A stretch of 64,000 nt of DNA, from positions 49,081 to 113,080 of the IMG/VR virus record IMGVR_UViG_3300032331_001766; one strand, 5' to 3'. Of this stretch, positions 8,482 through 53,457 are shown one piece after another. The notes below the pieces were generated by a model. The model did no database searches and was not told the DNA's origin. It saw only the letters and a program-made list of their open reading frames with translations. The position numbers were made by a program, and so were the translations under genes. Every line of letters starts with the position of its first letter. The stretch's first letter is position 1. The stretch comes from a virus.

Positions 8482-9259
8482 TCAATTATTAATGACAGCT
8501 GCCAGCGGACTTGAAAAGCTAATGGCTAACCCTACTAAGAATAATAAAAATTTAAGGGATAGCAGCGTGGCACAAATATCTGCTGCAATTTATTATAAGG
8601 CTAATGTTATTTCCCAATTGACTTCAAACACTGCATTTCAGAAAAAATTTAGAGAAGTAATATATGGACAAATAGAAAAAGATTTTGGAGACTATATTGA
8701 CTCTCAGGCAAGAACAAAGCCAAAAGCATTACACCATGTATATGAATGGGACAAGGCTGGTTCACCAGCAGCAAGACTATTTAAGTTAAAATCATTTGGG
8801 GATAACGCATTGTCGTTTAAAGTTGGATACGAATTTAAACTCTCTAAATCAAATGTTCCATCTCCAGCAAATTTTAAAAAATATAAGTTTGCTAATAAAG
8901 CATATGTAATGGAAAACGGCATACCCGTTACAATTGCTCCAAAGGCCGCTGAGAGACTTGTGTTTGAGGTTAATGGTTATACCGTCTTTATGCCTAAAGG
9001 TCGCTCTATTACCGTTTCAAAGCCTGGTGGAGGCGGTGCTACGCATCAGTTCAGACTTGCATACTCAAGATTCTTTAGAGGAAATTTAGCGGGAGATTCA
9101 ATTAGAAGATCTGGATTTCAACAATTATTTAATTCAAAAATGTCAAAAGCATTAAAGGTTCCAGGAGGAATATCAAGAGTTCAATATTCTTTCGCACCAA
9201 ATACAGTTAGAGCTCAAGCAAACTCAGCATTAAGTCAAGCATTTGGAGGATCACTATGA
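8471..9259 (+). CDS. Minor neck/tail protein (gp10-like position)
   Basis: A 262-residue basic protein between head closure and tail terminator, the place of HK97 gp10-like proteins. It opens with a helical segment (MTAASGLEKLMANPTKNNKN) and contains YGQIEKDFGDYIDSQARTKP, HHVYEWDKAGSPAARLFKL and a Gly-rich turn (SKPGGGGATHQ). A TTG start at 8471 has GGAG ten bases upstream; an ATG at 8492 is the alternative. It ends with an ATGA overlap with the next gene. The role in the neck is inferred from order. Confidence 0.5.
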   Translation: MDSSQLLMTAASGLEKLMANPTKNNKNLRDSSVAQISAAIYYKANVISQLTSNTAFQKKFREVIYGQIEKDFGDYIDSQARTKPKALHHVYEWDKAGSPAARLFKLKSFGDNALSFKVGYEFKLSKSNVPSPANFKKYKFANKAYVMENGIPVTIAPKAAERLVFEVNGYTVFMPKGRSITVSKPGGGGATHQFRLAYSRFFRGNLAGDSIRRSGFQQLFNSKMSKALKVPGGISRVQYSFAPNTVRAQANSALSQAFGGSL

Positions 9260-11349: not shown

Positions 11350-14300
11350 ATGGCTGATGAGCAAATTGTAACCAATATAGTTGCAACCTCAGATTTTTCA
11401 AGTCTCATTGCCGATGTGCAACGGACCACAGCAGCACTATCTAAATTACAGTCACAACTAGCTTTATCAAATACAGCATTAGCGAATCAGGCTGGCCAGA
11501 TACAAAAAGGTTTTGGAGAAACTCTAAGATCAACTGGCCAGTTTACTTCGCATTTTGTTACTGTTGGATCAGAGGTAGATAGATTTGGTAAAAGCCTTGA
11601 TTCTGGAAGATTAAAGTTAAGAGATTATTTTAAAACTTGGCAAGATCACACAAAAAGTTCTGGCGGATTAATTAGAGGTTTAGCAAAAGAACAGGTTGCA
11701 TTACAGCAATCTATAGTTCAATCGCTTGGTAAAACTGCAGATGGAATGCAGAAGTTTAACGTACACGTTAAGACTGGGCTAGATGAAGTAGCAAACAGAA
11801 CTGCATTAGCAAAGAAAGAAATGCAGATATACAACAAGGTTATTCAAGACGGCGGAAATCAAATTATTAACTGGGGTAAAAATACTCAGTGGGCTGGTCG
11901 TCAGTTAACAGTAGGACTCACAGTTCCAATAGCAGCATTTGGTGTGGCTGCATCAAAAGCATTTAGAGATGTTGACCAAGAGCTTGTTAGACTTACAAAG
12001 GTTTACGGTGGGCTTTCTGCAACTAGCGCAGTAGAGTTAGCTAAAGTTAGAAAAGATGTTTCTGCAACAGCTAAAGAATTAGCTGCAGCATATGGAGCGT
12101 CGTACAAAGATACAATTGCATTAGCAGCAGATATTGCAGCAACTGGTAAACAGGGCAACGAGCTGCTTCAGTCTACAAAAGAAGCAACAAGACTTTCTAT
12201 TCTTGGAGAAGTAGATAGACAAGAAGCTATGAAAGCAACTCTTGCAATTCAATCAGCATTTAAAAAGAATACAACAGAGCTTGGCAAATCAATTAACTTT
12301 CTTAACGCAGTTGAAAACCAAACCTCAACAAGCCTTGCAGATTTAGTTGAAGCTATACCAAAAGCTGGACCAGTAGTTAAAGCACTTGGCGGAGACATAG
12401 AAGATTTAGCACTTTATCTTACAGCTATGCGTGAAGGCGGAATTAACGCATCTGAAGGAGCAAATGCTTTAAAGTCAGCATTAGCATCTATCATTAACCC
12501 AACTAAAGTTGCTAAAGAAATGTTTCAAGGATTTGGAATTGATTTAGGTGGGATAGTAACAAAAAATGCTGGAAACTTAACAGGAACTATATTAGAGATT
12601 CAAGCAGCATTAGAAACACTAGATCCTCTTAAGAAATCACAGGCAATTGAGCAGTTGTTTGGTAAGTTCCAGTTTGCAAGAATGAATGCTTTATTTGAGA
12701 ATTTGGGTAAGCAGGGTAGCCAGACTTTACAGGTATTAGATTTAATGAAAGCAAGCTCACAAGATCTTGCAAATGTGGCTGGACGAGAATTAGCACAAAT
12801 TACTGAGTCTGCTTCTGGTAAATATAGAAGAGCATTAGAGTCATTAAAGGCAGACTTAGCTAAAGTAGGAGAGCAGTTCTTAACAATTCAAACATTCTTT
12901 ATTGAATTAGTAGATAAAATAATTAACTTTGTAAACAAATTACCAGAGCCTATTCAAAAAGTTCTTACATTGCTAGCTGGATTCACTGCAGCAGCGGGTC
13001 CACTTATTATGTTAACTGGTGTATTTGCTAACTTCTTTGGATATGTAATTAAGGGAATTGGCCATCTAAGAGCTTTATTTAAGGGCGGCGAAGGATTTAA
13101 ATTATTAACACCTCAAATAATAGCTGCAAATCAAGCTGGAAGTTTAATAGAAAAAACATTTTATAGCGATGCTCAAGCAGCAGCGACATTAGCTAATGCC
13201 CTAAGTAATTTAAATAATGAATTTAATCTTCTATACAATAAAGCAAACAACATTGCGCCAGTAGCACCAGCAATTTCAACAATGGCAAGCACCATGATGT
13301 TGCCAGGCGGAGCAACAGAAAGAGTTGTAAATAAGCAAAGCTCAATGCTAGGCAAGCCTTATTCAAGAGATATGTCTCATATGATTCCTTCAAAAACTGG
13401 ACAAGCAGGAACAATGTTTGGAGTTCTTCCTGGAACTGCTCCAGTAAATAAAAGAATTAGTAATAACCCACAGATCTATGCAGCAGGAGATTTGCCAGAT
13501 GTTCCTGGATTAACTAATGTTAATAAAGTTTCAACAGGTGTTGTAGCAGCAGAAGCTGCTAAATGGCACTCAATGACTGCAGCAATTGCAATGCAATCAG
13601 ATGCAGAACTTACAGCATTGAAACAAGAAGTTGCTGCAACTGGAACAATTACACATGAATTGTCTTCTTCATACCAGGCATTGTTGCCTAAGATGACTGA
13701 AGTTATTCAGAAAGCTGTTAAAGAATCAGAGTTAATTGTTGCTCAGACACAATCTGGTAAAATAACGTTAGATCAAGCAAGAGCAAAAATCACTGCGCTT
13801 AATGCACAAATAGAAACATTATTAGCATCAACAGCACAAGGAGTTGCAACAGCACAGGGAAGATCTATTAATGTTGGAATGGTTCCATTAACAAATCAAC
13901 CAGCTGTATCTCCAACTGGCAAGAGCAACATGAAAGAAATGTTCCACAAGAGTGCTAACGCAAATCTTATTAATAAAATAGCTGGCGTACTTGGAGTAAG
14001 AACTTCAGGCGGAGGATACAGCACTGAAACAACAATGCCAAAGAGATTTGCAGAAGGTGGATTTGTACCAGGAACTGGAAACACAGATACTCATCCAGAT
14101 TCACTACCTGCTGGATCTTATGTTGTAAATAAAAAGTCTTCTGAAAATCCTATGTATAGACCTATACTTAGAGCAATGAAAACTGGAATTAGATTTAGCA
14201 AGGGTGGAGAAGTACCAGTCGTACTAACACCAGGAGAGTTTGTTGCTGACCCACAAACAGCAAGAGAAAACGCACCAGTTCTAAGATCTATTAATGCTGG

Positions 14301-17300
14301 TAATTATGCTGTTGGCGGAACAGTAAGTATGAATAAAGTTAACTATGGAATTTCACCAAACAAGCAAAGAGTAAAGAGCCCAGCAATCATTGAAGATGCT
14401 TTAGCTAAAGTTATTGCATTTAACACAGATAAAAACTATGCTAAAAATAATTATACTGGTGCAGTATTAAATGACTCATGGGCAATATATGATGCAATAA
14501 CTTCTGCAACTGGAAGACCAGCAGATCCAAAAGAAGCAATTTCAATTGCAGAAGCAATGGAAGAAGAAGCAAGATCAGCATCGACCTTTGGCGGAGTGCT
14601 AGATGAAAATGAATATCGTAAAGTCGCTAAAGAACAGATGACTACATGGAAAAAGAAACTTAAAGAACAGTATCCTTCTATAAGACTTACAAGTTCTAAC
14701 AAAAGACAAAATGCAACTGATCCAACTGTCAGAAAATTAATTTATGCAATGATGCTTAAGGATAAAAGATTTAGTAGAGATTACCTAAAAACGCTAGATG
14801 TTTCTGAAGGCGGAAATGCAGTAAGAGCACACAGAGATCAGCTTTCTCAGTCTAAGAATAAGAATAATCCTTATAAGTATTTAAGAGCAGCCGTTGTTAC
14901 TCCAACAAATGTTAATTATGAAAGTAAGCAACTTCAGGATTATTATGGTATGGAAAACTATGAAGATAGAGTTTCTGCTGGACCAGTTCGTGCAGAGCAA
15001 GATGCAAAAAAGCTTCTTAAAGGTGTTGGTTTTAATTCACTTTCTTCATACGAAAAATATTTAAAAGAAAAGAAAGAAAAAAAGGAAGCAGCAAAGAAAC
15101 CTAAAAAGTATAAAGAGTTTTTAGCAGCAAGAACTTTAGGCAAGCCAGCGTTGTTTACACCAGCGTTTGCAGGAGCTATTAGAAGAAATAAGGGCGGAAT
15201 AATACCTGGACTAGCATCATCTGTTATTAATAGACTAACTAATAGATGGCCTGGTAAAAAGCAATTCTATCCACAGGGCTACCAGTACATGCTTGGTAAT
15301 CAAGATCCACTTCATGGTCCACTTCAAATTGGAATGTCACAACAACTTGCAAGACATTCTGGGTATGATCCAAAAGATGTATCACTTCAAAGAGGTGTTG
15401 TATTTAGAGATGATAGGTTTAGTAGATTAAACATTATGCCTCAGTTCCTTACTGGAACAGCAGAAGACCGTGGCAGATATGCAACATCACAATACATGTC
15501 TGGAAACCTAGATATTATGGGACAAATGGAAAGATTGGGTAATCACCCTCTCGGACCAATTGCTGCAATGAAAACTCAACAGAAAAAGTTTAGCGGAAAA
15601 TTATTTAGAGGAATTAAATTAGATAGAACATTTAAGGGTCTGCCAGAAGATTTAATTGAAGCAATTAAAATGGCAAGAGTTACTGGAGATGCTTCACCTT
15701 TAATTGGCAAAGAATTCATTATGCGCCGATCATCTTGGAGCAAGAGCCAAAACATAGCAAGCTACTTTGCGCCAGGGAAAAATGTAGACCCAGAATCATT
15801 GCTTATAGAAGCTGCTGTAAAAAATAGAAATATTTTACCAGCAGGAGACATGTTCCCAGATAAAGTTTTCCAGGCTCCAGGAGGACAAAATTGGGGCGGT
15901 GGAAGATTTAATAATGGATATAGATCAGAACAAGAAGCAATATTTGGTGGCAAGTTTAAGATAGTAGGATTTGATAAAGGCACTCTTCAGGTACAAACAG
16001 TTGTCGATGGAGCAAGAGAAGATGGCGGACCAACACAAGCTGGCAAGTCTTATATAGTTGGAGAAAATGGTCCAGAAATATTTATTCCAGAAACAAATGG
16101 AAATATAGTTCCAAATGCTGGAGTAAGCGGATCTAGAAAAACAGGCGCTATGGTTGCAAACTATGGTGCAAGCATGGCTGGGTATGGAATTGCAAGCAAG
16201 TTAGCTCCAGGAAATATGTTGGCACAAATTGGTGGCGGATTATTAGGCGATGTAGCTGGAAATATGATGTACAACAAGATAATGAATATTGGTCAAGCAG
16301 CTGGATCAGCAGCAAACAAAACTTCATTATTAACAAAAGCTTTCCAATTCTTTATTAAGATGCCTGGACCAGTTAAGTTACTTGCTGCAATTGCTGGAGT
16401 AGGAATGGCAATTCAAGCAGTCAATAAAAAAATTGAAGAGCATAGAAGAATTGTTAATTCAGCATTTGGATTAGAGGCTTCAACTGTAGCAAAGCTTGGA
16501 CTACAGTACACAACCCTTGAAGATAAGATGAAGGATTATCGCAAGGCACAAGATTTAGCAAATGCTTCTGCTGCAGCGTTTAAATATACTACAGATAAAG
16601 TTGGCGGAGCTCAAGGAATAGATATGACTCAAGAAGAGCTAGATGCTCTTAAGAAGTCATCAAAGAAAGATTTTAAAACAGAAATATCAATGTTTAATAC
16701 AGCAGGCGGGAATGAAGTTATTCAAAAAGCTACACAGCTTAAAGCAATGTTTGTATCATCTGGAATGGCAGTACAGGATGCAAATGAATTAATTTATGCA
16801 TTAATATTAAACTCTAATAAGGCAGAAAGCGCATTAACCGCACTTGGAGACAAAGGATTTGGTTCAATTCAAGATAAGGGTACAGCAGCAGCAGCAACAC
16901 TTAAAACATACTACTCCGTTATTGCAAAAGGAAATACTGATCAAATTGGTAAATCCGTTGATTCCGCATTAAATGCATATATAAATCTAGAGACATCTTT
17001 AGTTAATATAAATGATAAGACAAAGCCTATTGTAACTGAATCAGAGGCATACCTAAAGGTTCTTAATAAAATAAAAAATAGCAATGCTGGGAATGCAGAG
17101 TTAGGTGATGAAATTTATCTAGCACTTTCTAAGCAGAATGCTGAGCTTGGTAAGATAATAAATACCACAGACACATTTGCATCTGTAATGGCAAAGGTTA
17201 AATTAAGTACTTCAGGCCTTTCGTTAGACCTTGCAAATATGGGATCATCTGCTGCAACTGCTCTTTCAATAGTAGTATCAAAGCAACAAGATACTCTAGG

Positions 17301-18789
17301 ATCAACAACTGGCCCCTTTGCCAAGCTTGCAAGAGATATTCAAAACACTGGAAAAGCAAGTGCTGATCAAATTGTAAAAACTTCACAGATTTCTGCAGAT
17401 GCATTAAATAAGCAGATAGATTTACATAATAAGAATATAAAAAAGATTAAAGAAGAAGCGGATGCCAGAAAGAAGGCATTAGACGAACAGCTTTCAGATG
17501 AGACAACATTACTTCAAATTAAAAAGAAGCAGATGGAATATGCTGATGCAGTTGCCGCTGGAGATATGTCTAGAGCTGCACAAGCGCAATTAGATATACA
17601 GGCTTTAACAAGAGCTCAAGAAGTTACTGTAGCAAAGCGATCAATTGACGACAAGGCTGAAAAAGATATTAAGGCTCAAGAAGCTGCAATTGATGCGTTA
17701 AATAAAAAGCTTGATGGACTTCAAAAAACAGTAAATGCTGCACAAGCAAATGCATCTGCTGCACAAAAGAAATCTGCTGACCTTCAGTCAATGATGGATG
17801 AACTAGTTGCATTAACTGTAGCTGGAGCGGATGGAGTTGACTCAAAAGAATCTGCACGTAGAGATGCACTTGTAAATAAATTAACAAAGGCTGGATATAA
17901 AGATATTGCTTCTAAGATAACAGGAGCAGTTGGCGGAAGATACGAAGGCAGCACGTTTGTTCCTTCAGGAGATAAGTTAGCAGAATTAAGCAAGGGTTCA
18001 TTTAATGATGCATATAATGCTTCAAAGAAAGCTTTGGCAGTTTACATAACAGATCCAGAAACAATAGCTTTATTAGGTGGATTAGGAAAGGGAGAGACTC
18101 CTGGATTCCAGCCACCAAAGGGAACACCAAAAACTCCTATTATTAATCCTAAAACTCCAGTAAAAGATGTTTCAAAAGAAAAGACAATTCTTGATGCAGC
18201 AAAAGCTGCAGCTGGTGGGAAAAAACAAACAACAATGGTTAGCATTAATGATATTGCTTATGAGATATTTAAGTACGGCAACTCACAGTATTTGATGCCA
18301 AAGGGCACAAGCGGAAGTGAAATTTATGAATACCTATTTGCAAATGGAGCAGTTACTAGAGGTAAACGAGTAACTGACTTAAAGAGAAACTATAGCATAG
18401 GTGGACTAGTATTTGGAGCAGGAACTGCAACATCTGATTCAATACCAGCAATGCTTTCAAATGGAGAATATGTAATTAATGCTGGAGCAGTAAGTGCATA
18501 CGGCAAAGAAGTATTTGATCAATTTAATAGTAGAAAGTTTGCTACTGGAGGAATGGTTAATCCTTCATTTAGTGTTCCTTCTGGAGCAGTCTCACTTGGC
18601 AATAACATGGGTTCACGATATAATGGTGGAGGACAGGTTTACAATTACAGCGCAGGAGGAATTGTCATTAATCCAGCGCAAGGACAAAATGAAAAACAAA
18701 TTGCAGAATACGTAGTTTCAATTATGGATGCAAAAAATGGCTTAAGAGCAGCAAGCACTGGAGATAAAGGACGGTACCTAAGAACATGA
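11350..18789 (+). CDS. Tape measure protein with embedded ART-like domain
   Basis: This 2,479-residue protein sets tail length and is ejected ahead of the DNA. Residues about 190-420 match the phage tape measure core (FRDVDQELVRLTKVYGGLS, YLTAMREGGINASEGANALK). Hydrophobic segments lie near 535-575 and 1600-1700. Gly-rich modules of the form GGxVPGxGxxDSxPAxLxxGEYVVN recur near residues 900, 955, 1280, 1560 and 2350. Residues about 1290-1550 look like an ADP-ribosyltransferase: LFRGI (R1420), SSWS (1461-1464) before QNIASYF, and EQE (E1527, E1529) before AIFGGKFKIVGF, the R/S-x-S/ExE signature. Residues about 2010-2150 form a coiled coil. Residues 1000-1275 form an unrecognised domain. The gene follows the chaperones by nine bases. 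Confidence 0.93.
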   Translation: MADEQIVTNIVATSDFSSLIADVQRTTAALSKLQSQLALSNTALANQAGQIQKGFGETLRSTGQFTSHFVTVGSEVDRFGKSLDSGRLKLRDYFKTWQDHTKSSGGLIRGLAKEQVALQQSIVQSLGKTADGMQKFNVHVKTGLDEVANRTALAKKEMQIYNKVIQDGGNQIINWGKNTQWAGRQLTVGLTVPIAAFGVAASKAFRDVDQELVRLTKVYGGLSATSAVELAKVRKDVSATAKELAAAYGASYKDTIALAADIAATGKQGNELLQSTKEATRLSILGEVDRQEAMKATLAIQSAFKKNTTELGKSINFLNAVENQTSTSLADLVEAIPKAGPVVKALGGDIEDLALYLTAMREGGINASEGANALKSALASIINPTKVAKEMFQGFGIDLGGIVTKNAGNLTGTILEIQAALETLDPLKKSQAIEQLFGKFQFARMNALFENLGKQGSQTLQVLDLMKASSQDLANVAGRELAQITESASGKYRRALESLKADLAKVGEQFLTIQTFFIELVDKIINFVNKLPEPIQKVLTLLAGFTAAAGPLIMLTGVFANFFGYVIKGIGHLRALFKGGEGFKLLTPQIIAANQAGSLIEKTFYSDAQAAATLANALSNLNNEFNLLYNKANNIAPVAPAISTMASTMMLPGGATERVVNKQSSMLGKPYSRDMSHMIPSKTGQAGTMFGVLPGTAPVNKRISNNPQIYAAGDLPDVPGLTNVNKVSTGVVAAEAAKWHSMTAAIAMQSDAELTALKQEVAATGTITHELSSSYQALLPKMTEVIQKAVKESELIVAQTQSGKITLDQARAKITALNAQIETLLASTAQGVATAQGRSINVGMVPLTNQPAVSPTGKSNMKEMFHKSANANLINKIAGVLGVRTSGGGYSTETTMPKRFAEGGFVPGTGNTDTHPDSLPAGSYVVNKKSSENPMYRPILRAMKTGIRFSKGGEVPVVLTPGEFVADPQTARENAPVLRSINAGNYAVGGTVSMNKVNYGISPNKQRVKSPAIIEDALAKVIAFNTDKNYAKNNYTGAVLNDSWAIYDAITSATGRPADPKEAISIAEAMEEEARSASTFGGVLDENEYRKVAKEQMTTWKKKLKEQYPSIRLTSSNKRQNATDPTVRKLIYAMMLKDKRFSRDYLKTLDVSEGGNAVRAHRDQLSQSKNKNNPYKYLRAAVVTPTNVNYESKQLQDYYGMENYEDRVSAGPVRAEQDAKKLLKGVGFNSLSSYEKYLKEKKEKKEAAKKPKKYKEFLAARTLGKPALFTPAFAGAIRRNKGGIIPGLASSVINRLTNRWPGKKQFYPQGYQYMLGNQDPLHGPLQIGMSQQLARHSGYDPKDVSLQRGVVFRDDRFSRLNIMPQFLTGTAEDRGRYATSQYMSGNLDIMGQMERLGNHPLGPIAAMKTQQKKFSGKLFRGIKLDRTFKGLPEDLIEAIKMARVTGDASPLIGKEFIMRRSSWSKSQNIASYFAPGKNVDPESLLIEAAVKNRNILPAGDMFPDKVFQAPGGQNWGGGRFNNGYRSEQEAIFGGKFKIVGFDKGTLQVQTVVDGAREDGGPTQAGKSYIVGENGPEIFIPETNGNIVPNAGVSGSRKTGAMVANYGASMAGYGIASKLAPGNMLAQIGGGLLGDVAGNMMYNKIMNIGQAAGSAANKTSLLTKAFQFFIKMPGPVKLLAAIAGVGMAIQAVNKKIEEHRRIVNSAFGLEASTVAKLGLQYTTLEDKMKDYRKAQDLANASAAAFKYTTDKVGGAQGIDMTQEELDALKKSSKKDFKTEISMFNTAGGNEVIQKATQLKAMFVSSGMAVQDANELIYALILNSNKAESALTALGDKGFGSIQDKGTAAAATLKTYYSVIAKGNTDQIGKSVDSALNAYINLETSLVNINDKTKPIVTESEAYLKVLNKIKNSNAGNAELGDEIYLALSKQNAELGKIINTTDTFASVMAKVKLSTSGLSLDLANMGSSAATALSIVVSKQQDTLGSTTGPFAKLARDIQNTGKASADQIVKTSQISADALNKQIDLHNKNIKKIKEEADARKKALDEQLSDETTLLQIKKKQMEYADAVAAGDMSRAAQAQLDIQALTRAQEVTVAKRSIDDKAEKDIKAQEAAIDALNKKLDGLQKTVNAAQANASAAQKKSADLQSMMDELVALTVAGADGVDSKESARRDALVNKLTKAGYKDIASKITGAVGGRYEGSTFVPSGDKLAELSKGSFNDAYNASKKALAVYITDPETIALLGGLGKGETPGFQPPKGTPKTPIINPKTPVKDVSKEKTILDAAKAAAGGKKQTTMVSINDIAYEIFKYGNSQYLMPKGTSGSEIYEYLFANGAVTRGKRVTDLKRNYSIGGLVFGAGTATSDSIPAMLSNGEYVINAGAVSAYGKEVFDQFNSRKFATGGMVNPSFSVPSGAVSLGNNMGSRYNGGGQVYNYSAGGIVINPAQGQNEKQIAEYVVSIMDAKNGLRAASTGDKGRYLRT

Positions 18790-26241: not shown

Positions 26242-29200
26242 ATGGGAATGTTTTTAAAAGATTCTTCAGGAACATTTAGAAGTATTCCAAAAATATTTTT
26301 AAAAAACTCTGATGGCACATGGAGAGGTGTAGTTTCTGCCTACTTAAAAGATTCACTAGGAACATGGAGACTATTTTTTGGTGCAGAATACTTAAACCCT
26401 TCTGTGCTATTTGAGCCAGCTTTAGTATCAAATGACTCCATTGGTAGATTTAAGCAAGGCTCGACTTTAAGTTTAGATAGAGGTATATGGGACGGAAGCC
26501 CAACATCATATTCTTTAACAATTCAAGGTACTTTAGATAGTGGCGCTACCTGGACTGATTTTGCAACAGGATCTGGAACAAGTGTAACTTATCTTTTAAA
26601 TATAAGTGATGTGATGTATCCTTCATATTCATTTAGAGGTAAAGTAGTTGCAACAAATACTTATGGGTCTACAACTTTTTATACATTAATAACACCATCA
26701 ATATTAAGTTTGCAAATAAATGGAATCGTATCTTTACCAACTCAAAATGGAGCAACATTCTCTTGGACAGTAAATCCTTCAACTTCAGGATATAGAGCTT
26801 CCCAAAGAATAGAATTTTATTCAGTTTCAAATCCGTCGGTAACTCCAGTATATACATATAATGTTCCTACTAATTCAGCAAACTCTGCAGTAGTAAGCAA
26901 TGCAGCTCTTACTACATCAACACAATATAATGCTGTCATAAAAATTGTTTCTTTAGATAGCTCTAATACAGTTAACTTTAGCAGCGATATATTATTTACT
27001 ACAGCATCTTCTTTGGTAAATACAGTTGCTCCATCAATTACTGGAACAAAACAAGAGGGACAAACAGTCACAGCTAATCCAGGAACCTGGTCTGGAAATG
27101 GAACAATTACTTATGCATATCAATGGCAGTATGCAGTGCAAACTGCTGGATCTAATTATTCTTATTATGATATACCAGGAGCTACTGGAAGCACTTACTT
27201 TATACCTTATAACTATAATGAAACATATGTTGATAAGGGAATAAGGCTAAAGGTTACAGCAACTACAGTAGATACTCCAGGAGGAGTAATTGCTTATTCT
27301 CAAAGCTATGCAGTTGCAGATTTTGCAGTTCCAGTTGGAACAGATGATACAGTTACATTTTCACGAGATTCTTCCAGTAATTATAATTTTTCAATAACAA
27401 ATACAGGAACTTGGACTGGTACTCCAACATCTTATAGATACCAATGGTATACATACGAGTCAACATTTGGAGGAAACTATTCCTGGTTTCCAGTATCTGG
27501 AGCAACATCTAGTACATTTAATGCTTCAGGAGTAAAGTTATTTGAAATTATGCCAATTGTTTGGGCTTCAAATCCTGGAGGAGAAAGCGATACTGGATAC
27601 AGTTTAACTAATACAAATGGAACTAGACCTGCTGGTAACATAGGATCTATATCTGCAGCTGCAACACAGGTAGTAAAATATACCGCTCCAATCATTGGTT
27701 CTTTTTCTGTTACTGGTGGAGCTGGATCTATAACATATAGTTATTCCGTAACTGGAGATGATCCAACCAAAACATTAGCAATATCTTATTCTGGTGCAGC
27801 TACAGGTAGTTTTACTCCAGCAGCAAGCGGATCTACGCAGACTGGTCTGGCCGCAGGAACATATAACTTTGTTTTAACTGCAACAAACTCCGTAAGTGGA
27901 AATAGTTATTTTGTAACATCAACAGTTGCAAATATTATTGTAACAGCACCACTAACAGCTCCAGTAAATACTTTAGCCCCAGCAGTAACTCCAGTAACTG
28001 GAACAGCTGGAGTAACAACATACACTTCAACAACTGGAACATGGACTGGAAACCCAACACCAACTTATGCTTATCAATGGCAAACCAACGATCAAGGTTC
28101 TTTGTGGGTTTCTATATCTGGAGCAACTTCATCTACATATTCTCCAGCTAGTAATTATACTTCTGTATATAATAATACATTAAGGTGCAGAGTTACTGCA
28201 ACAAATAGCCAAGCTAGCGTTGCTGCATTTTCTAATGAAGTTGTAGTTAATACACCTCAATATACAGTTACATATGATTATCAATCAGCCACAGGAGGAA
28301 ATACAACAGCTTCTGCTACTGTAAATGCTGGTTCATCAACATCTCTTCCAACCCCAACTAGAACAAATTACACATTTGGTGGATGGTATACAGCAATTAC
28401 TGGTGGTACATTTATTGGAAACGGGGGATTTGCTTATACTCCAACAGCAAGCATTACTTTATATGCAAGATGGACAGCCATAAACTGGACAGTGAGTTGG
28501 GATGCAAATGGTGGAACCGTTAGCCCAACATCAAACACTGGAATACAGGGTTCAACAGTAACTGCGCCAACACCTACCCGTACAAACTTTACATTTTTAT
28601 ACTGGAGAGATTCTTTATCTGCAGTAAGCTATCTGTATCAGCTAAGCGCAGGCGGAACATGGACACAATCACAAACTATAACATTCTATGCTTGGTGGCA
28701 ACAAATTACATATGTTGTTACCTATAATGCTAACAGTGGAACCGTTAGCCCAGCATCTGCAACAGTAAATGCTGGATCTGCAACAACGCTTCCTACTCCA
28801 ACAAGATCTGGGTTTACATTTAATGGATGGTATACAGCAGCATCTGGGGGAACCTTAGTAGGAGCAGCAGGAGGATCCTATACACCAACTGCAGCAATTA
28901 CACTATATGCACAATGGACTGCAGTAGTAGTTAACTACACTATGACTTGGAGAGCAAATGGTGGTTCTAGCGGAGATCAAACAACAGGGCCGTTTGCATC
29001 AGGCAGTGCACATACTGCACCAAGCCCAGGAACAAGGGCTGGATACACATTTGCTGGTTACTACGACACAGCTTCTTTAGATTTTACAGTTGGGCCAATT
29101 GCATCTGGTGGAACTTATACTCCAACAGCTAATACCACACTACAGGCAAGATGGACTGCAATAGTTCCGAGCATTACTCAAATTGTTGTTTCTGGAAACG

Positions 29201-29523
29201 TAACTGCGGGAGTTACATGTGCAGTTACTGGGACAAATATGGGCTCTATACAGTATACATTTTATGCCAGAGATACAGGCACAAGCGCTTGGACTCAAAT
29301 TTCTGCTGGTACTGCAGCTCCATCTAGCGCAACATCTGCAAGCATTTCTACAACTGGTTCTGTAGGAACTTTGCCAGATCAATACTATGTTGATATGCAG
29401 CCATTTTTTGGAGCAAGATCTACATCTGGAGCTAATGGGGGAACTGGAACTGCTGGTACGCTAAGATCTACATCTGGAAGTCCAAAAAATAATCAATCAG
29501 GATCGGTAACGGTAAACTTCTAA
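26242..29523 (+). CDS. Large tail adhesin with Ig-like and Flg_new repeats
   Basis: A 1,093-residue, Thr/Ser/Gly/Ala-rich protein. The N-terminus has three short repeats of the form LKDSxGTWR (about residues 5-43), found at the start of some tail proteins as an attachment piece. Residues about 265-670 carry Ig-like repeats of the type GTWTGNPTPTYAYQWQ. Residues about 674-970 hold four Listeria-Bacteroides (Flg_new, InlB B-type) repeats such as GWYTAITGGTFIGNGG and ITLYARWTA. No signal peptide is present, so this is a virion part rather than a cell surface protein. The composition suits an extended adhesin that reaches host surface polymers. It follows the fibre gene without a gap. Confidence 0.78.
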   Translation: MGMFLKDSSGTFRSIPKIFLKNSDGTWRGVVSAYLKDSLGTWRLFFGAEYLNPSVLFEPALVSNDSIGRFKQGSTLSLDRGIWDGSPTSYSLTIQGTLDSGATWTDFATGSGTSVTYLLNISDVMYPSYSFRGKVVATNTYGSTTFYTLITPSILSLQINGIVSLPTQNGATFSWTVNPSTSGYRASQRIEFYSVSNPSVTPVYTYNVPTNSANSAVVSNAALTTSTQYNAVIKIVSLDSSNTVNFSSDILFTTASSLVNTVAPSITGTKQEGQTVTANPGTWSGNGTITYAYQWQYAVQTAGSNYSYYDIPGATGSTYFIPYNYNETYVDKGIRLKVTATTVDTPGGVIAYSQSYAVADFAVPVGTDDTVTFSRDSSSNYNFSITNTGTWTGTPTSYRYQWYTYESTFGGNYSWFPVSGATSSTFNASGVKLFEIMPIVWASNPGGESDTGYSLTNTNGTRPAGNIGSISAAATQVVKYTAPIIGSFSVTGGAGSITYSYSVTGDDPTKTLAISYSGAATGSFTPAASGSTQTGLAAGTYNFVLTATNSVSGNSYFVTSTVANIIVTAPLTAPVNTLAPAVTPVTGTAGVTTYTSTTGTWTGNPTPTYAYQWQTNDQGSLWVSISGATSSTYSPASNYTSVYNNTLRCRVTATNSQASVAAFSNEVVVNTPQYTVTYDYQSATGGNTTASATVNAGSSTSLPTPTRTNYTFGGWYTAITGGTFIGNGGFAYTPTASITLYARWTAINWTVSWDANGGTVSPTSNTGIQGSTVTAPTPTRTNFTFLYWRDSLSAVSYLYQLSAGGTWTQSQTITFYAWWQQITYVVTYNANSGTVSPASATVNAGSATTLPTPTRSGFTFNGWYTAASGGTLVGAAGGSYTPTAAITLYAQWTAVVVNYTMTWRANGGSSGDQTTGPFASGSAHTAPSPGTRAGYTFAGYYDTASLDFTVGPIASGGTYTPTANTTLQARWTAIVPSITQIVVSGNVTAGVTCAVTGTNMGSIQYTFYARDTGTSAWTQISAGTAAPSSATSASISTTGSVGTLPDQYYVDMQPFFGARSTSGANGGTGTAGTLRSTSGSPKNNQSGSVTVNF

Positions 29524-41649: not shown

Positions 41650-41954
41650 TGTCAGAGAGATCAGAAGTAGAAAGAGATGGAGCTAAGGCTCAAAAGAATT
41701 CTGGCAGAGGTGATTATCAAAAAGGTGATGCTAAATGGAATCAATTCTTAGTAGATTACAAAGAGGCATCAAAATCTTTTACTTTAAATAAAGATGTTTG
41801 GGCAAAAATATGTACTGATACATTTAAAGTCAGCAGAGACATGCACCCAGCATTAAAAATTATTATAGGAAACGAATCAAAAGTCAGGCTTGGTATAATT
41901 GAATGGGCAGTTTTAGAAGAATTGATAAAGTTTTGGGAGGCAGAACATGAATGA
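41649..41954 (+). CDS. Putative Holliday junction resolvase-like nuclease
   Basis: A 101-residue protein with NSGRGDYQKGDAKWNQFLVDYKEASKS. The Gly-Asp followed by VDYKEA fits the PD-(D/E)xK nuclease core of small archaeal-type or phage resolvases, and the rest (WAKICTDTFKVSRDMHPAL, IIIGNESKVRLGIIEW) fits the following sheet. It lies between RecA and the Cas4-type nuclease, a fitting context. It starts in TAATG and its stop overlaps the oxygenase start. Family call is moderate. Confidence 0.55.
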   Translation: MSERSEVERDGAKAQKNSGRGDYQKGDAKWNQFLVDYKEASKSFTLNKDVWAKICTDTFKVSRDMHPALKIIIGNESKVRLGIIEWAVLEELIKFWEAEHE

Positions 41955-42831
41955 TTTAAATAAAACAGTTATCTATCCTAAAGTAGTTGTATATCATAAT
42001 CTAATAAATGACCCTAAAAAAATTGCTGACATGCTAGAAGCAAATAGAGGTCTAAAAGAAAGCAACCACCATCTAATTCCTTGGAGAGACTGGAGTCCAA
42101 TGGGTGAAATTATGAATGTTGATCTTCCAGATAAACTAAATGAAACAGAAGACCAGGAAAAAATAAATCAAGAAGAGCGTTTAAATGATATAAACAATGC
42201 ATTTATTGCTGCATCAAATGATTTTTTTGATATGTATTCAAAGGAAGATGGTTGGCCAGAATTTGTTAAACATTTTGATAGATCAGTTGAGCCATGGAAC
42301 AGAAGTGGAATGTCTTTTTTAAGATATGATCCAACAAGATATAATTATGATGTAAAAAATAATAAGCCAGGATTAGCAATGGATTACCATACAGACCATG
42401 CAGAATTTAATGAAAGATATCCAGGCAAAAAGTTTGTTGTAACTGTTACAATGTATCTTAATGATGAATATGAGGGTGGAGAAATTTCATTCTTAGATGA
42501 ATCTAGTGGTTCTATTACAAATTATAGACCAAAAGCTGGGGATGTGACTGTTTTCCCTTCTGGATATCCATATTTTCATGGTGTGCTTCCAATATTAAAT
42601 GGAGACAGATATCTACTCAGAATGTTTTGGTCTTGGTATCATGAGGGAAGCCCAGAGTGGCATGAGGGATACAATAAGTACGGCGAAGAAGAGTGGACAA
42701 AGATGGAGAATGAAAGAAAAGAAATTGAGTTTAACTCTGGTAAATATCATCGTGTTGTAATTTATCCAGGAGAAGAATTTGATCCATCTACACAAAGGTC
42801 TACGCCATTTTATGTAAAGGAAATAAGATAA
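41947..42831 (+). CDS. 2OG-Fe(II) oxygenase
   Basis: A 294-residue dioxygenase with the full active site: H148-x-D150 in YHTDHAEF, distal H211 in YFHGV, and R221 (GDRYLL) for 2-oxoglutarate, joined by MYLNDEYEGGEISF. The N-terminal 130 residues are extra to the catalytic fold and may bind the substrate. GGGAGG at 41935-41940 precedes the ATG. Such enzymes hydroxylate proteins, sugars or bases; none of the neighbours fixes the substrate. It stands inside the recombination block and is one of several in this genome. Confidence 0.9.
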   Translation: MNDLNKTVIYPKVVVYHNLINDPKKIADMLEANRGLKESNHHLIPWRDWSPMGEIMNVDLPDKLNETEDQEKINQEERLNDINNAFIAASNDFFDMYSKEDGWPEFVKHFDRSVEPWNRSGMSFLRYDPTRYNYDVKNNKPGLAMDYHTDHAEFNERYPGKKFVVTVTMYLNDEYEGGEISFLDESSGSITNYRPKAGDVTVFPSGYPYFHGVLPILNGDRYLLRMFWSWYHEGSPEWHEGYNKYGEEEWTKMENERKEIEFNSGKYHRVVIYPGEEFDPSTQRSTPFYVKEIR

Positions 42832-47287: not shown

Positions 47288-47821
47288 ATGTCTGAAATAG
47301 AGCCAGCAGTACACTTTGATAGAATGAACAAGGTAGTTGAAGAACTACTGAAGGGTAACTCTGCTAGCCAAATAGCAACGCTTACTGGGTTTTCCCGCAA
47401 AGAAGTACTTGAGTTCATTGATGAGTGGAAGTCTGTAGTACACAATGATACAAGCCTTAGAGACCGTGCTAAAGAAGCAATATCTGGGGCTGATCAACAT
47501 TACGCTATGATGATTAAAGAAGCCTGGAAAACCGTAGAAGATGCTGACACACAAGGCCAGCTTAATGTTAAAGCTGGAGCATTAAAGTTAATTGCTGATA
47601 TTGAAACAAAAAGAATTGGTATGCTTCAGTCGGTAGGCGTAATTGAAAATAATGAGCTTGCATCGCAGGTTGCTGAGGCTGAAAGAAAACAAGAGATTTT
47701 AGTAAAGATACTTAAAGAGGTAACTTCTTCATGCCCTAAATGTAAGATGGATGTAGCCAAAAGATTATCACAGGTTACTGGAGTAGTAGAGCCTATATTT
47801 ATAGATTCGGAAGTTTCATGA
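47288..47821 (+). CDS. Putative terminase small subunit
   Basis: A 177-residue helical protein with an N-terminal helix-turn-helix (GNSASQIATLTGFSRKEVLEFIDEW), long helices in the middle (MMIKEAWKTVEDADTQGQLNVK) and a CPKC pair near the C-terminus. A DNA-binding N-domain with an oligomerising helical core is the usual make-up of small terminases, which recognise the genome for packaging. The large subunit lies 2.5 kb downstream; the gap is filled by the HAD-NTase-GT61 gene. It ends in an ATGA overlap with that gene. Confidence 0.65.
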   Translation: MSEIEPAVHFDRMNKVVEELLKGNSASQIATLTGFSRKEVLEFIDEWKSVVHNDTSLRDRAKEAISGADQHYAMMIKEAWKTVEDADTQGQLNVKAGALKLIADIETKRIGMLQSVGVIENNELASQVAEAERKQEILVKILKEVTSSCPKCKMDVAKRLSQVTGVVEPIFIDSEVS

Positions 47822-50352
47822 CAGAAACATTTAAAAGAAGATTATTTATTTTTGATTTAGATGGTGTTTTGGTTGATAGTAAAAAAATACATTTTAATTC
47901 TTTAAATACAGCATTAGAAAAAATTGATCCAAAATATTTAATATCTGAAGAAGATCAGTCAACTATGTTTGAAGGCCTTCCCACTAAAGAAAAGCTAAAA
48001 CTATTAACTAGTTTACGTGGTTTACCAGAAGAGCTTTATGAAAAAATATGGGAAGAAAAACAAAAGCAATCTATAGTATATTTTAAATCTTTAGAAAAAG
48101 ATAAAGAACTTATAGAACTTTTTAAAATAATTAAAGAGTATCATGTTGATATAGCAGTCGCAAGCAACTGCATAAGGGAGACCGTTGAAGCATGTCTTAC
48201 ATCATTAGGATTAATTGATCTAGTTGGCTTATATTTAAGTAATGAAGATGTAGTACAACCAAAACCAAACCCAGAAATTTATACAAAATGTATAAGTCAT
48301 TTTGTGTGTCATCCAAACTATACAACCATATTTGAAGATAGTCGTGTTGGAAAAATTGCAGCTATTGCAAGTGGAGCACGTTTAATAGGCATAGAGAATA
48401 GAAGCTCTATAAATAAAGAAACTATTTTTAAAGCATTAAATGAAGAAAGAAGAAAAATAAATGTATTAATTCCTATGGCTGGCGAAGGCTCTAGATTTAC
48501 AAAAGCTGGTTATAAAGATCCAAAACCAATGATAGATGTAAATGGTAAATCTATGATTAACCTAGTACATGATAATATTAATTTAGATGCTCATTATATT
48601 TTTATTGCAAAAGATGAACACGTAGTTAAATATAATTTAGAAGATCATATTAGTTCATTTTGTAGTAACTATACAATTATAAAACAAGAAGGTAGACTTG
48701 AGGGTGCAGCAAAAACTGCTTTACTTGCTAAAGATCTTATAAGTAATCAAGATCATTTATTGATTGCAAATTCAGATCAGTATATAGATTGGGATAGTAG
48801 TAAAACTATAAATGATTTTATAAGGTCTGGAGTAGATGGTGCTATATTAACTTTTAAAGCAACAGAAGAAAAATGGTCTTATATTAAAGAAAATGATGGC
48901 ATAGTAGAAGAAGTATTTGAAAAAATAGTTGCAAGCGATAATGCAACTTGCGGTGTATATTTTTGGAAATATGGATCTGATTTTATTAAATATGCAGAAA
49001 AAATGATTGAAAAAAATATTAGAACAAATAATGAGTTTTATATATGTCCAGTTTATAATCAAGCTATTGAAGATCAAAAAATTATTTCTTTTTCTGAAGT
49101 AAAAGAAATGCATGGCTTAGGTACACCAGAAGATTTAGATTCTTATTTAAAATATTTAGATATAAGAACTGATATTAGAAATAAAAATTACACAGAAAAA
49201 ATATTTGAAATATCTGAAGATGAATTTTTTGTTAAATATAAAAATCCAGAGTATGAGATATATGATAGAGAATTATCAAATAATCCTGGATATAAGTATT
49301 ATGACTATGATGCTGAAATGGTTAAACTTCCAGATGCCACACTACTTGAAAAATATCAAGAGCGCACACGTAGATGGGTTTTAAATCCAATAGTGACTAA
49401 AATTCATAATTCTAATGAGGTTTCTTATTTAGAAAGATCAGTATATCTTGTGCCATATCATACAAGATTTTTTCATGTTTATTTAGAAATTCTTCCAAAG
49501 ATTTTTATTTTAAAAGAAAAAGATCCTAACTTTAAACTTATAATGTTTCATGATGAAGAATTAAATGAAGATAAAATTTTTCCAAGTTTATTAGGCAATT
49601 ATAATAAAAAAAATGGAAGAGAATCCGACGGTAGAGCTTTAAAGTTTTGGTTAGATAAACTAAATATAGACTATGAATGTATAAATTTAGAAACCTTAAA
49701 GGATTATAATTTAAAGTTTAAATATTCATATGTATTTTATGAAGCTATTAGAAATCAAAATTTAATGGATATTGCAAAAAAATATGATGAAAAATTTTTT
49801 AATGGTCCAATAGTATATAAAGATTTAAAAAAATATCATCCACATGAGATATTACAAAGAGGAGATTCTAGCGTAGATGTAGGTACAAATAGATATTTAA
49901 AAAAAGCAATAAATGATTTTATTAATATAAATAATTTAGATGTAAAAAATGAAAATAAAAAAATATATATATCTAGAAAAAATTATGTTAGATCTCACAA
50001 AAATGAAAAAGATATAGAAAACTACTTTATTTCAATTGGATACGAATCCGTATGCTTGGAAGACTTTGATCCAATAGAGCAAATACAAATATTTAGAAAG
50101 TCATCAGATATAGTTTGTTATTTAGGATCATCTATAATAAATGCATATTTTATAAATCATGAAGCTAAACTAACCATATTGGCATTAGATTCAGATAGCG
50201 ACGCAGAGTTTAATAAAAATATGCTTGGATACTATAGTATGCAAATTCAAGATCAAAAAATCAATAAAAAATTTATAAACATACCTCAATTTTTTAATGA
50301 TGATGTAAGTCATTTCTTTAATAAAGAATTGGAGAAAAATAATGGAGTTTGA
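47818..50352 (+). CDS. HAD phosphatase / sugar nucleotidyltransferase / GT61 fusion
   Basis: An 844-residue, three-part enzyme. Residues about 8-205 are a HAD hydrolase of the phosphoglucomutase-like class: FDLDGVLVD (D13, D15), VASNCIR and FEDSRVGKIAAIASGA. Residues about 213-440 are a sugar-phosphate nucleotidyltransferase: LIPMAGEGSRFTKAGYKDPKPM, then IANSDQYIDWDS and GLGTPEDLDSYL. Residues about 510-840 match the GT61 glycosyltransferase family: YLVPYHTRFFHVYLEILPKI, KKIYISRKNYVRSH, DPIEQIQIFRKSSDIVCYLG. It could process a sugar phosphate, activate it and transfer it. It is more AT-rich than its neighbours and lies between terminase genes, suggesting acquisition. Confidence 0.85.
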   Translation: MTETFKRRLFIFDLDGVLVDSKKIHFNSLNTALEKIDPKYLISEEDQSTMFEGLPTKEKLKLLTSLRGLPEELYEKIWEEKQKQSIVYFKSLEKDKELIELFKIIKEYHVDIAVASNCIRETVEACLTSLGLIDLVGLYLSNEDVVQPKPNPEIYTKCISHFVCHPNYTTIFEDSRVGKIAAIASGARLIGIENRSSINKETIFKALNEERRKINVLIPMAGEGSRFTKAGYKDPKPMIDVNGKSMINLVHDNINLDAHYIFIAKDEHVVKYNLEDHISSFCSNYTIIKQEGRLEGAAKTALLAKDLISNQDHLLIANSDQYIDWDSSKTINDFIRSGVDGAILTFKATEEKWSYIKENDGIVEEVFEKIVASDNATCGVYFWKYGSDFIKYAEKMIEKNIRTNNEFYICPVYNQAIEDQKIISFSEVKEMHGLGTPEDLDSYLKYLDIRTDIRNKNYTEKIFEISEDEFFVKYKNPEYEIYDRELSNNPGYKYYDYDAEMVKLPDATLLEKYQERTRRWVLNPIVTKIHNSNEVSYLERSVYLVPYHTRFFHVYLEILPKIFILKEKDPNFKLIMFHDEELNEDKIFPSLLGNYNKKNGRESDGRALKFWLDKLNIDYECINLETLKDYNLKFKYSYVFYEAIRNQNLMDIAKKYDEKFFNGPIVYKDLKKYHPHEILQRGDSSVDVGTNRYLKKAINDFININNLDVKNENKKIYISRKNYVRSHKNEKDIENYFISIGYESVCLEDFDPIEQIQIFRKSSDIVCYLGSSIINAYFINHEAKLTILALDSDSDAEFNKNMLGYYSMQIQDQKINKKFINIPQFFNDDVSHFFNKELEKNNGV

Positions 50353-52144
50353 TTTTAGTGACCTCATAGATATATTGGACGGCGAAGAGTTTGATGAGCG
50401 TCCAGTAGATCTTCGCACATTTGTACAAAGCCCAAACTATCTAGGATTACCACCATTGTCTGAACATCAATATACTTTAATTGAAAAAAGTTCTCAGATA
50501 TACAAAGAATCGACATTGATTAAACTTTTGGGCAATGAAGAAGGAAAAAGAATGTTTAAGCAGACTGCCAATGAGGTTGTTGCTCAATTAGGCAAGGGAT
50601 CTGGCAAGGATTACTGCTCTACTATATCTGTAGCTTATATAGTATATTTACTATTGTGCTTAAAAGACCCAGCTACTTATTACGGAAAACCTCCTGGAGA
50701 TTCAATTGATATTATTAATATTGCAATTAACTCTCAGCAAGCACAGAATGTTTTCTTTAAGGGATTTAAAACAAGAATTGATAAATCCCCCTGGTTTGCT
50801 GGCAAATATGAATCTAAAGCATCTGAAATCAAATTTGATAAAGCAATAACAGTATACTCAGGACACTCAGAGAGGGAAGCATTTGAGGGGTACAACGTTA
50901 TTGTTGTCGTGCTTGATGAAATATCTGGTTTTGCAACAGAGAACACTACTGGGCACGAGCAGGCAAAAACAGGAAGCGCTATTTACGATATGTATAGGGC
51001 ATCCGTTGACTCAAGATTTCCAGACTTTGGTAAAGTTATTTTGCTTTCTTTTCCTAGATATAAAAACGATTACATACAGCAAAGATATGAAGATGTGGTT
51101 GCGGAAAAAGAAGTTGTTGTTAGAACGCATCATTTTAAGTTAGACGAAGACCTTCCAGATGGAACTACTGGTAACGAGTTTGATATAGATTGGGAAGAAG
51201 ATCATATAATTTCTTATAAGTATCCTAGGATGTATGCTTTAAAAAGACCAACATGGGAAGTTAATCCAATAAGAAAAATTGATGATTTCAAGGTTGCTTT
51301 CTATAAAAATTCAGTTGACGCATTAGGTAGATTTGCCTGTATGCCTTCAGATGCAGTAGACGCATTTTTTAAGTCCAGGGAAAAAGTTGAGAAAGCTTTT
51401 AATATTGGTAACTTGGCTGTAGATCATTTTGGAAGAATAGAAGATTGGTTTAAGCCAGACCCAGAAAAGAAATATTTTATACACGTGGACTTAGCGCAAA
51501 AGCATGACCATTGTGCAGTAGCGCTATCACACGTAGACAGATGGGTAAATGTTAAAATCACAAACGAATACTCTCAGCCAGCACCAATTGTAAGTGTTGA
51601 TGCTGTTAGATATTGGACACCAACCCCAGATAAATCTGTAGATTTTACTGAGGTTAAAGACTATATTATTTCATTAAAAAGTAGGGGATTTAACATAGGT
51701 GTTTGCACATTTGATAGATGGAACTCACACGACATGATGCAGCAGTTAAAACAATATGGAATTAATACAGAAATTTTATCTGTTGCTAAGAAACATTACG
51801 ATGATATGGCTATGATTGTTTTAGAAGAAAGATTAAATGGCCCACATATACCACTATTAATTGATGAATTACTTCAGCTAAAGATTATGAGAGATAGGGT
51901 AGATCACCCAAGAAAAGGTTCTAAGGACTTAGCCGATGCTGTTTGTGGATCTATATTTAATGCAATAAGTAGGACAAGGCCAAACATAGACCAAGAAGTT
52001 AATATACATACGTATGAATCTATGTCATATGATAATGATTTTGGAGTAGAGAAAAAAGAAGAAGAGTATGTACAGAATATGATTAGGGCCCCAAGGATGC
52101 CACAAGATTTAAGAGAAGCAATGGATAGGATGCAAATAATATGA
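50342..52144 (+). CDS. Terminase large subunit
   Basis: A 600-residue packaging motor. The ATPase half has QLGKGSGKDYCS (Walker A-like), YNVIVVVLDEISGF (Walker B with catalytic Glu) and ILLSFPRYKND (coupling motif). The nuclease half shows YFIHVDLAQKHDHCAVALSH with the first acidic residue, VCTFDRWNSHDM and SKDLADAVCGSIFNA with the last. GGAG at 50331-50334 precedes the ATG, and the gene overlaps the GT61 fusion by 11 bases. It cuts and pumps DNA into the prohead through the portal. Confidence 0.93.
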   Translation: MEFDFSDLIDILDGEEFDERPVDLRTFVQSPNYLGLPPLSEHQYTLIEKSSQIYKESTLIKLLGNEEGKRMFKQTANEVVAQLGKGSGKDYCSTISVAYIVYLLLCLKDPATYYGKPPGDSIDIINIAINSQQAQNVFFKGFKTRIDKSPWFAGKYESKASEIKFDKAITVYSGHSEREAFEGYNVIVVVLDEISGFATENTTGHEQAKTGSAIYDMYRASVDSRFPDFGKVILLSFPRYKNDYIQQRYEDVVAEKEVVVRTHHFKLDEDLPDGTTGNEFDIDWEEDHIISYKYPRMYALKRPTWEVNPIRKIDDFKVAFYKNSVDALGRFACMPSDAVDAFFKSREKVEKAFNIGNLAVDHFGRIEDWFKPDPEKKYFIHVDLAQKHDHCAVALSHVDRWVNVKITNEYSQPAPIVSVDAVRYWTPTPDKSVDFTEVKDYIISLKSRGFNIGVCTFDRWNSHDMMQQLKQYGINTEILSVAKKHYDDMAMIVLEERLNGPHIPLLIDELLQLKIMRDRVDHPRKGSKDLADAVCGSIFNAISRTRPNIDQEVNIHTYESMSYDNDFGVEKKEEEYVQNMIRAPRMPQDLREAMDRMQII

Positions 52145-52374
52145 GTCAGTACCAAGAAAAAGCTAAAGAGTGTAAATGTTGTGGTAAACATGTGCCCTTA
52201 CCTACAGTTTTAAGAGAATATAATGGGCTTATGCTTTGCCCAACTACATTTTCTAATGTAATGGAATATAAAAGATTATGGTTAGTAATTGGTAATAGGC
52301 CACAAGGAAGCATACGCAAGCATTTTTCTGAATATGTACAGCAGATTGTTGAAAGCTCAATAAATGTTGAATAA
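52141..52374 (+). CDS. Small zinc-binding protein after terminase
   Basis: A 77-residue protein with a CKCCGKH knuckle (residues 11-17) and a later Cys (LMLCPTTF), a likely zinc site. It starts in an ATGA overlap with the terminase stop. The C-terminal half is helical (SIRKHFSEYVQQIVESS). It could be a packaging accessory, perhaps an HNH-remnant or small DNA binder; no nuclease motif is visible. Confidence 0.6.
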   Translation: MSQYQEKAKECKCCGKHVPLPTVLREYNGLMLCPTTFSNVMEYKRLWLVIGNRPQGSIRKHFSEYVQQIVESSINVE

Positions 52375-52456
52375 AATTTATGCATATATCTATATAAAAT
52401 ATTTTAAAATTAAATTAAAGTTTAAAAAAGAAAAGGGTAAAAGGTTTATATACTAA
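52364..52456 (+). CDS. Possible 30-residue Lys/Tyr-rich peptide
   Basis: Reads MLNKIYAYIYIKYFKIKLKF and then a basic end. It overlaps the gene before and shares its stop with the next ATG (TAATG), the coupling style of this genome. The amphipathic, basic make-up could bind membranes. It may also be a mere AT-rich spacer frame. Confidence 0.35.
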   Translation: MLNKIYAYIYIKYFKIKLKFKKEKGKRFIY

Positions 52457-53457
52457 TGTTTAATAAAAAATATAAACTAGAATATCAAAATACAGATAGG
52501 CTATCGTCTTCCATACTCTTTGGAAAAACTAAAAGCTATTCTCCATCATTATCTGATATTCAAGAAATTTACTTTAATGATATGAACGAAATAAGGCTAT
52601 CAGATTTATATTATGGCATAGAAAATGGTAGCGATATCGGGATTAACTATCAATTAAACTCATATGGATACAGAGGTCCTAGCCCTAAAGTAACTAACGA
52701 CATACTTACTTTAGGATGCTCACAGACTTTTGGAATAGGTATCAAAGACTACGGTAATACTTGGCCAGCGATAGTGTCTTATTCATTAAATTTAAATTAT
52801 ACAAATTTAGCAAAATCTGGTAGTTCAATTGATTCTCAAATAAGAAGAGCTTTTGCTTATTTTAAAAAATTTGGTAATCCAAAGCATATCTTTGCAATTT
52901 TCCCAGATTTTCAAAGAGTTGAATTTCCTTCTAATTACAAAACATTAGTAGCAGATAAGAGTATTAAAACAAAAAAACAGGGTGGACTAGCCATAAAACA
53001 TTTTAAAGATTTTGATCAGATTCCTAAAGTTTCATCAATGCCTCACGACTCTAGAGATATATTTACAGAAGAGCTTTGCTATTTTAGATCTGCACAAAGC
53101 ATACTTATGCTAGAACAGTATTGTGAAATTGCAGGTATAAATTTTATTTGGGGAACTTGGTCAGAAGAAGATGAAGATTTAATATTAAAATTAAAAGAAA
53201 TTAATAATTCATCATATAAAAATTTTATACCATTACATAATTATAAATGGATTAGAAATTATGAAACACAACAAGAAGAATTTTATGATAAAACTTATAA
53301 AGATTTACATCCAGTTAAAAGCAATTGTCATAATGAGCATTCAAGTTTAGAAGATTTTTATATTGCATTGGATAAAAAATATAACTTTTCTACAGCTCAT
53401 TCTGGAGTTCACAGGCACATGCATTGGGCAGAAACAATAGTAAATAATATAAAATGA
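52456..53457 (+). CDS. SGNH-like hydrolase, copy 1
   Basis: A 333-residue alpha/beta protein of the SGNH/GDSL type. Block I is ILTLGCSQTFGIGI (Ser after Gly-Cys), block II-like NLAKSGSSIDSQIRRAFAYF, a strand HIFAIFPDFQRVEFP and a C-terminal HSGVHRHMHWAETI that supplies His for the catalytic site. The family includes esterases and acetyltransferases that act on sugars. Low sequence complexity and high AT mark it as a recent-looking arrival. It is followed by the carbamoyltransferase in an ATGA overlap, and a paralogue follows that. Confidence 0.75.
   Translation: MFNKKYKLEYQNTDRLSSSILFGKTKSYSPSLSDIQEIYFNDMNEIRLSDLYYGIENGSDIGINYQLNSYGYRGPSPKVTNDILTLGCSQTFGIGIKDYGNTWPAIVSYSLNLNYTNLAKSGSSIDSQIRRAFAYFKKFGNPKHIFAIFPDFQRVEFPSNYKTLVADKSIKTKKQGGLAIKHFKDFDQIPKVSSMPHDSRDIFTEELCYFRSAQSILMLEQYCEIAGINFIWGTWSEEDEDLILKLKEINNSSYKNFIPLHNYKWIRNYETQQEEFYDKTYKDLHPVKSNCHNEHSSLEDFYIALDKKYNFSTAHSGVHRHMHWAETIVNNIK

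Follow-up and report, generated by a model that had tools for sequence, protein, structure and literature searches.

An exchangeable cassette with a predicted ADP-ribosyltransferase fold in the tape measure protein of uncultured viruses

Introduction

The ADP-ribosyltransferase (ART) Alt of bacteriophage T4 is carried in the virion and delivered together with the DNA; it modifies the RNA polymerase and further proteins of the host (PMC9503650, PMC5512222). Alt, which belongs with VIP2 to family PF03496, is packaged into the head as a separate protein. In another group of phages, VIP2-like ARTs are fused to the MuF or the portal protein, as in the Microbacterium phages Percival and Goodman and in gp16 of Stenotrophomonas phage AXL1, where the ART is C-terminal. 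The distribution of these fusions is patchy, and the close phages Floof and PaMx74 are devoid of the ART. Tape measure proteins (TMPs) can also contain enzyme domains: a hydrolase motif in TM4, a muramidase in phiIPLA35 and lytic transglycosylases in enterococcal phages, all of which act on the cell wall. Finally, polymorphic toxins combine a constant carrier with exchangeable C-terminal modules. An earlier paper on freshwater actinophages reportedly described an ADP-ribosylating toxin. No report of an ART within a TMP was found in the consulted papers mentioning both, and the carrier of the freshwater actinophage toxin is the main uncertainty with respect to novelty.

The domain described here shares with Alt the R-S-E type of signature and, by prediction, the location in the virion. 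Unlike Alt, it is part of a TMP and does not match PF03496 significantly. As in the MuF and portal fusions, the ART is joined to a structural protein of the virion; however, the carrier is a tail protein instead of a head protein, and the domain is internal, between Gly-rich linkers. In contrast to the known enzyme domains of TMPs, it is predicted to use NAD+ and to modify proteins. A constant carrier with exchangeable modules is also a property of polymorphic toxins, but here the variable module is internal and not C-terminal.

Results

The carrier is a tape measure protein

The window, i.e. the whole stretch of 64,000 nucleotides that was analysed, is part of a 113,080-base IMG/VR virus record. 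The features of the TMP gene are listed in Table 1. The encoded protein matches the Pfam family PF10145 (PhageMin_Tail, 2.9e-28) and many tape measure families of PHROGs (best match 4.7e-124), and no MuF family. The profile matches, the long frame and the position within the tail gene block identify it as a TMP. The surrounding genes include those for the portal, the prohead protease and replication. The host is likely actinobacterial, because the record contains a WhiB gene and because the N-terminal half of the TMP resembles, at 35–37% identity, those of the Streptomyces phages Bmoc, Samisti12 and others. A macro domain was not found in the same genome.

Several further features of the window were recorded. 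Five tRNA genes (Leu, Met, Arg, Gly, Lys) are located between positions 36186 and 57794, and 2OG-Fe(II) oxygenase domains occur in two proteins (1–357 and 41947–42831). A 1093-residue protein encoded downstream of the tail genes (26242–29523) contains four Listeria-Bacteroides repeats (PF09479). The region 47818–54875, a possible cluster of sugar modification genes, codes for a HAD hydrolase / nucleotidyltransferase / glycosyltransferase-61 protein, an unknown protein of 600 residues and a carbamoyltransferase.

Table 1. Features of the tape measure protein gene and of the ART cassette
Feature	TMP residues	Window positions	Strand	Evidence or remark
Tape measure protein gene		11350..18789	+	Open frame, 2479 aa; PF10145 and PHROG matches
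PhageMin_Tail domain	239–438	12064..12663	+	Pfam match; inside conserved N-terminal part
Variable module in the cargo slot, upstream of the ART	~960–1280	14227..15189	+	Common only to L003/L165 (one contig)
ART cassette and bounding Gly-rich linkers	1281–1591	15190..16122	+	912-nt in-frame presence/absence, L016 vs L017
NQDPLHGPLQIG motif, upstream of core	1317–1328	15298..15333	+	N, D, P, H, G, L, I and G invariant in all 43 TMPs with the ART
Predicted ADP-ribosyltransferase core	1365–1552	15442..16005	+	AlphaFold model m69295974e6c4; Foldseek ART matches
R1420 in LFRGI (1418–1422), arginine of the R-S-E signature	1420	15607..15609	+	Predicted strand
SSWS, S-x-S element	1461–1464	15730..15741	+	End of predicted strand
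E1527-Q-E1529, ExE element	1527–1529	15928..15936	+	Start of last long predicted strand

A sequence-only reading of the window had proposed an ART-like domain inside the TMP, at positions 15170–16010. This extent was right to about 20 bases: the conserved block comprises TMP residues 1281–1560 (positions 15190–16029). All motifs named in that reading, namely R1420, SSWS, QNIASYF (1467–1473), EQEAIFGG (1527–1534) and FKIVGF (from 1536), were found at the places given and in the one open frame of the TMP. Gly-rich linkers of the tape measure type were likewise confirmed on both sides of the block, KGGIIPG at residue 1281 and GG...YIVGENGPE at 1559–1576.

The block is predicted to fold as an ADP-ribosyltransferase

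The sequence-only reading had asked for a structure prediction and a fold search, and two AlphaFold models were generated. The first one, based on 17 alignment rows, reached a pLDDT of 63.6, and ranks 1–12 of the Foldseek search against the PDB were all ARTs. The second model, based on 43 rows and comprising TMP residues 1312–1555, has a pLDDT of 80.0 and a pTM of 0.75; for 102 of its residues, the pLDDT is 90 or higher. The values are about 75–96 in the core, except for one loop at 59, and 33–41 in the region of the NxDPxHGxLxIG motif (blocks 1–20 of the model). The predicted order of elements is strand (R), helix, strand (SxS), helix, strand, ExE, strand, which is the strand order of ARTs. 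Thus, an Arg on the first core strand, the S-x-S element and a Glu follow each other as in the R-S-E clade. E1529, presumably the catalytic glutamate, is located where the long strand with FKIVGF begins.

With the second model, ranks 1–7 of the PDB search were again all ARTs, namely Vis (with agmatine or NAD), Certhrax and CDTa. The E values range from 4.0e-5 for Vis with agmatine to 1.6e-2; rank 8 is unrelated (E 0.68). These matches point to the split beta-sandwich of ARTs, with moderate TM-scores in the PDB: 0.38–0.43 by query length and up to 0.50 by target length. Vis, Certhrax and CDTa share with the block the R, S-x-S and ExE signature, but their sequence identity is only 12–15%, and they are bacterial toxins with no structural role in a phage. 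In the viral library, the named proteins among ranks 1–25 were mostly ARTs, including enzymes of a Gordonia phage and of T4-like phages; some minor capsid and portal proteins occurred as well. On the basis of the two models, the block very probably folds as an ADP-ribosyltransferase.

Searches of Pfam, PHROGs, NCBIfam and PDB sequences with the domain gave no significant family. Among the 43 members that were searched, the commonest family match was PF03496 (ADPrib_exo_Tox), which remained below the threshold in three members (best E 0.067); by this profile the domain does not belong to the Alt/VIP2 family. DRAT was matched below the threshold by one member (E 0.13). A weak match of one of the 43 members to gerPA (E 0.01) was set aside as chance.

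The signature is invariant among relatives

A scan of viral contigs with the single sequence yielded one relative with 62% identity. With the N-terminus of the TMP as query, 80 TMP loci were collected, about 20 of which contained the ART block. A profile scan yielded 49 loci, and a second profile scan, in which the most divergent members came first, contributed two further types. The resulting ART alignment consists of 43 copies from uncultured viruses, which are 35–79% identical to that of the window. Nearly all copies are located within a long TMP frame, apart from those cut off by contig ends and that of L068, which is affected by an in-frame stop. In the latter case (L068:4984-9456), the TMP frame is broken near position 8521, before the ART, which may reflect a genuine split or an error in sequencing. 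Another ART-bearing TMP, with 4190 residues (L117:3948-16517), contains a LysM domain at residues 3007–3051 that is probably involved in wall binding.

Residues R1420, S1461, S1462, W1463 and S1464 are invariant in all 43 copies. E1527 and E1529 are invariant in 42 of 42 copies, the remaining contig ending upstream of them, and the residue between the two is variable (Q, S, K, N, H or E). The motif before the last long strand is therefore always ExE and never QxE, which is the arginine-type pattern and suggests arginine specificity. Loss of the motif in relatives, which would have spoken against the sequence-only reading, was not observed in any copy that reaches these positions. Fully conserved are 39 of the 244 alignment columns; the chance that all five named columns are among them is p ~8e-5. 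For pairs with dS <0.5, the dN/dS values of the ART are 0.07–0.25 (Nei-Gojobori), more distant pairs being near saturation and left out. The ART is therefore maintained as a protein by purifying selection.

The NxDPxHGxLxIG motif upstream of the core co-occurred with the ART cassette in pattern scans and may have a role in release or binding. SLQRGV (from residue 1345) was considered as a second ART arginine and dropped, since this Arg varies among relatives. A tblastn search of 50,697 phage records gave nothing but chance matches with the window member and no match with two divergent members. Pattern-seeded scans of species-representative prokaryote genomes did not reveal a relative.

The cassette is exchanged between tape measure proteins

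The TMPs that lack the ART match that of the window from residue 1 to about 950 (mostly 59–67% identity) and then, weakly, from about 1585. The ART is therefore located in a variable slot. The clearest case is the comparison of L016, which contains the ART, with L017, which lacks it. Before the block, the two TMPs are 95% identical, with hardly any difference in the N-terminal 900 residues, and most of the flanking DNA shows 86–95% identity. In L017, the block is absent as a unit: 891 nt between the aligned pieces plus a 21-nt overlap of these pieces in L017 add up to a difference of 912 nt, which corresponds to 304 codons and is in frame. The overlap coincides with a Gly-linker, of which L016 has a copy on each side of the block (GGMVQGY and GGIIPGY). 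The module upstream of the ART is also unlike between L016 and L017.

When mapped on a phylogeny of 76 TMP N-termini, the presence of the ART switches at least seven times; this was a quick tree in which two long branches were joined, and the number of changes is therefore approximate. The N-termini of L114 and L087 are 88% identical and their ARTs just 38%, whereas L114 and L126 have ARTs with 80% and N-termini with 57% identity. Together with the L016/L017 difference, these switches and swaps bear out the earlier suggestion that the block was inserted as a unit. Base composition, which was inspected for a recent import, gave no sign of it: the GC content is 38.8% in the ART and 37.8 and 37.3% in the TMP flanks.

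Upstream of the ART, the slot contains a second variable module, which falls into eight sequence clusters among 68 TMPs; these were drawn by BLAST, and the clusters may still be remote kin. No Pfam match was found for the upstream variable modules, which are possibly further cargo. In the TMPs of L090, L092, L094, L102, L103 and L104 (3367–3834 residues), the last 75–105 residues match the C-terminus of the TMP from the window. All six have more than 800 extra residues ahead of this match.

Discussion

We propose that the block is probably an arginine-type mono-ADP-ribosyltransferase that is borne by the tail, ejected together with the TMP, and modifies targets of the host early in infection. 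The tube of the tail is occupied by the TMP, which is released from it ahead of the DNA. Being a part of the TMP, the ART domain would ride in the tail and would exit together with its carrier when the tail opens. In the cytoplasm, it would use host NAD+ to attach ADP-ribose to one or several host proteins. R-S-E ARTs with an ExE motif usually modify arginine, which would most likely be the target residue here. The modification would precede the expression of phage genes, as is the case for T4 Alt delivered from the head. Delivery is the weakest step of this proposal, because a folded domain of about 25 kDa, present in several copies, may not fit into a tail lumen of about 4 nm unless it is unfolded or located at an end. 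Ejection into the host is suggested by analogy with the TMP of the gene transfer agent RcGTA, which was modelled as being ejected with the DNA into the periplasm (PMC7296036).

The ART might instead work outside the cytoplasm or on parts of the phage, modifying a surface-exposed host protein or its own tail and thus aiding DNA entry. In line with such a role, the envelope is where TMPs act, and wall-acting domains are frequent in them (PMC10194240, PMC6145125). However, the optional presence of the domain in sister phages argues against a core function in assembly. Moreover, NAD+ is generally known to be scarce outside the cytoplasm, and we regard this alternative as unlikely.

For VIP2-like ARTs of freshwater phages, some of which are predicted to infect Actinobacteria, it was proposed that the active toxin is aimed at eukaryotic grazers eating infected bacteria and not at the bacterial host (PMC6802176). 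Actin-modifying toxins are indeed among the structural neighbours of our domain. The same explanation is nevertheless quite improbable in this case: the domain is internal to a tail protein that delivers into a bacterium, no translocation partner was seen, and the presence or absence in sister phages fits pressure from the bacterial host equally well.

A tape measure may tolerate changes in length, and an inactive ART fold could thus serve as a spacer or a binding module. This alternative is, however, very improbable, because the signature is invariant in 43 copies despite a divergence of the remaining domain down to 35–40% identity, and because close pairs are under purifying selection. Finally, the R / SxS / ExE pattern by itself is loose and the family libraries contain no significant match, but a motif that arose by chance in a rapidly evolving coiled coil or linker is extremely improbable, given the conservation of the five residues and two models whose top structural matches in the PDB are all ARTs.

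Under the preferred reading of a tail-borne, host-directed ART, the slot between residues ~950 and ~1585 would be occupied by cargo that phages swap through recombination between the repeated Gly-rich linkers. It is tempting, if still speculative, to regard the middle of the TMP as a general cargo bay with an optional ART and about eight kinds of upstream module, flanked by recombining Gly-rich linkers. The tail of siphoviruses would then be a delivery route for polymorphic effectors, comparable to that of MuF proteins in the head.

The class of enzyme is ordinary; its carrier and its exchange are unusual. In a 2023 study of mosaicism in phage proteins, no genuine recent mosaicism was confirmed in TMPs (PMC10684548). 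The pair L016/L017 looks like such a case. The ART may target RNA polymerase, a defence protein or another molecule, and the purified domain makes the choice between them testable. A TMP-borne ART is missed by sequence libraries, as happened here. A study that screened 21,191 viral proteomes, and in which tape measures are unmentioned, found NAD+/ADP-ribose systems in only 16% of siphoviruses compared to 60% of myoviruses (PMC9503650). If our proposal is true, an ART cassette in the TMP would be the siphoviruses' own route for effectors that act in the first minute of infection.
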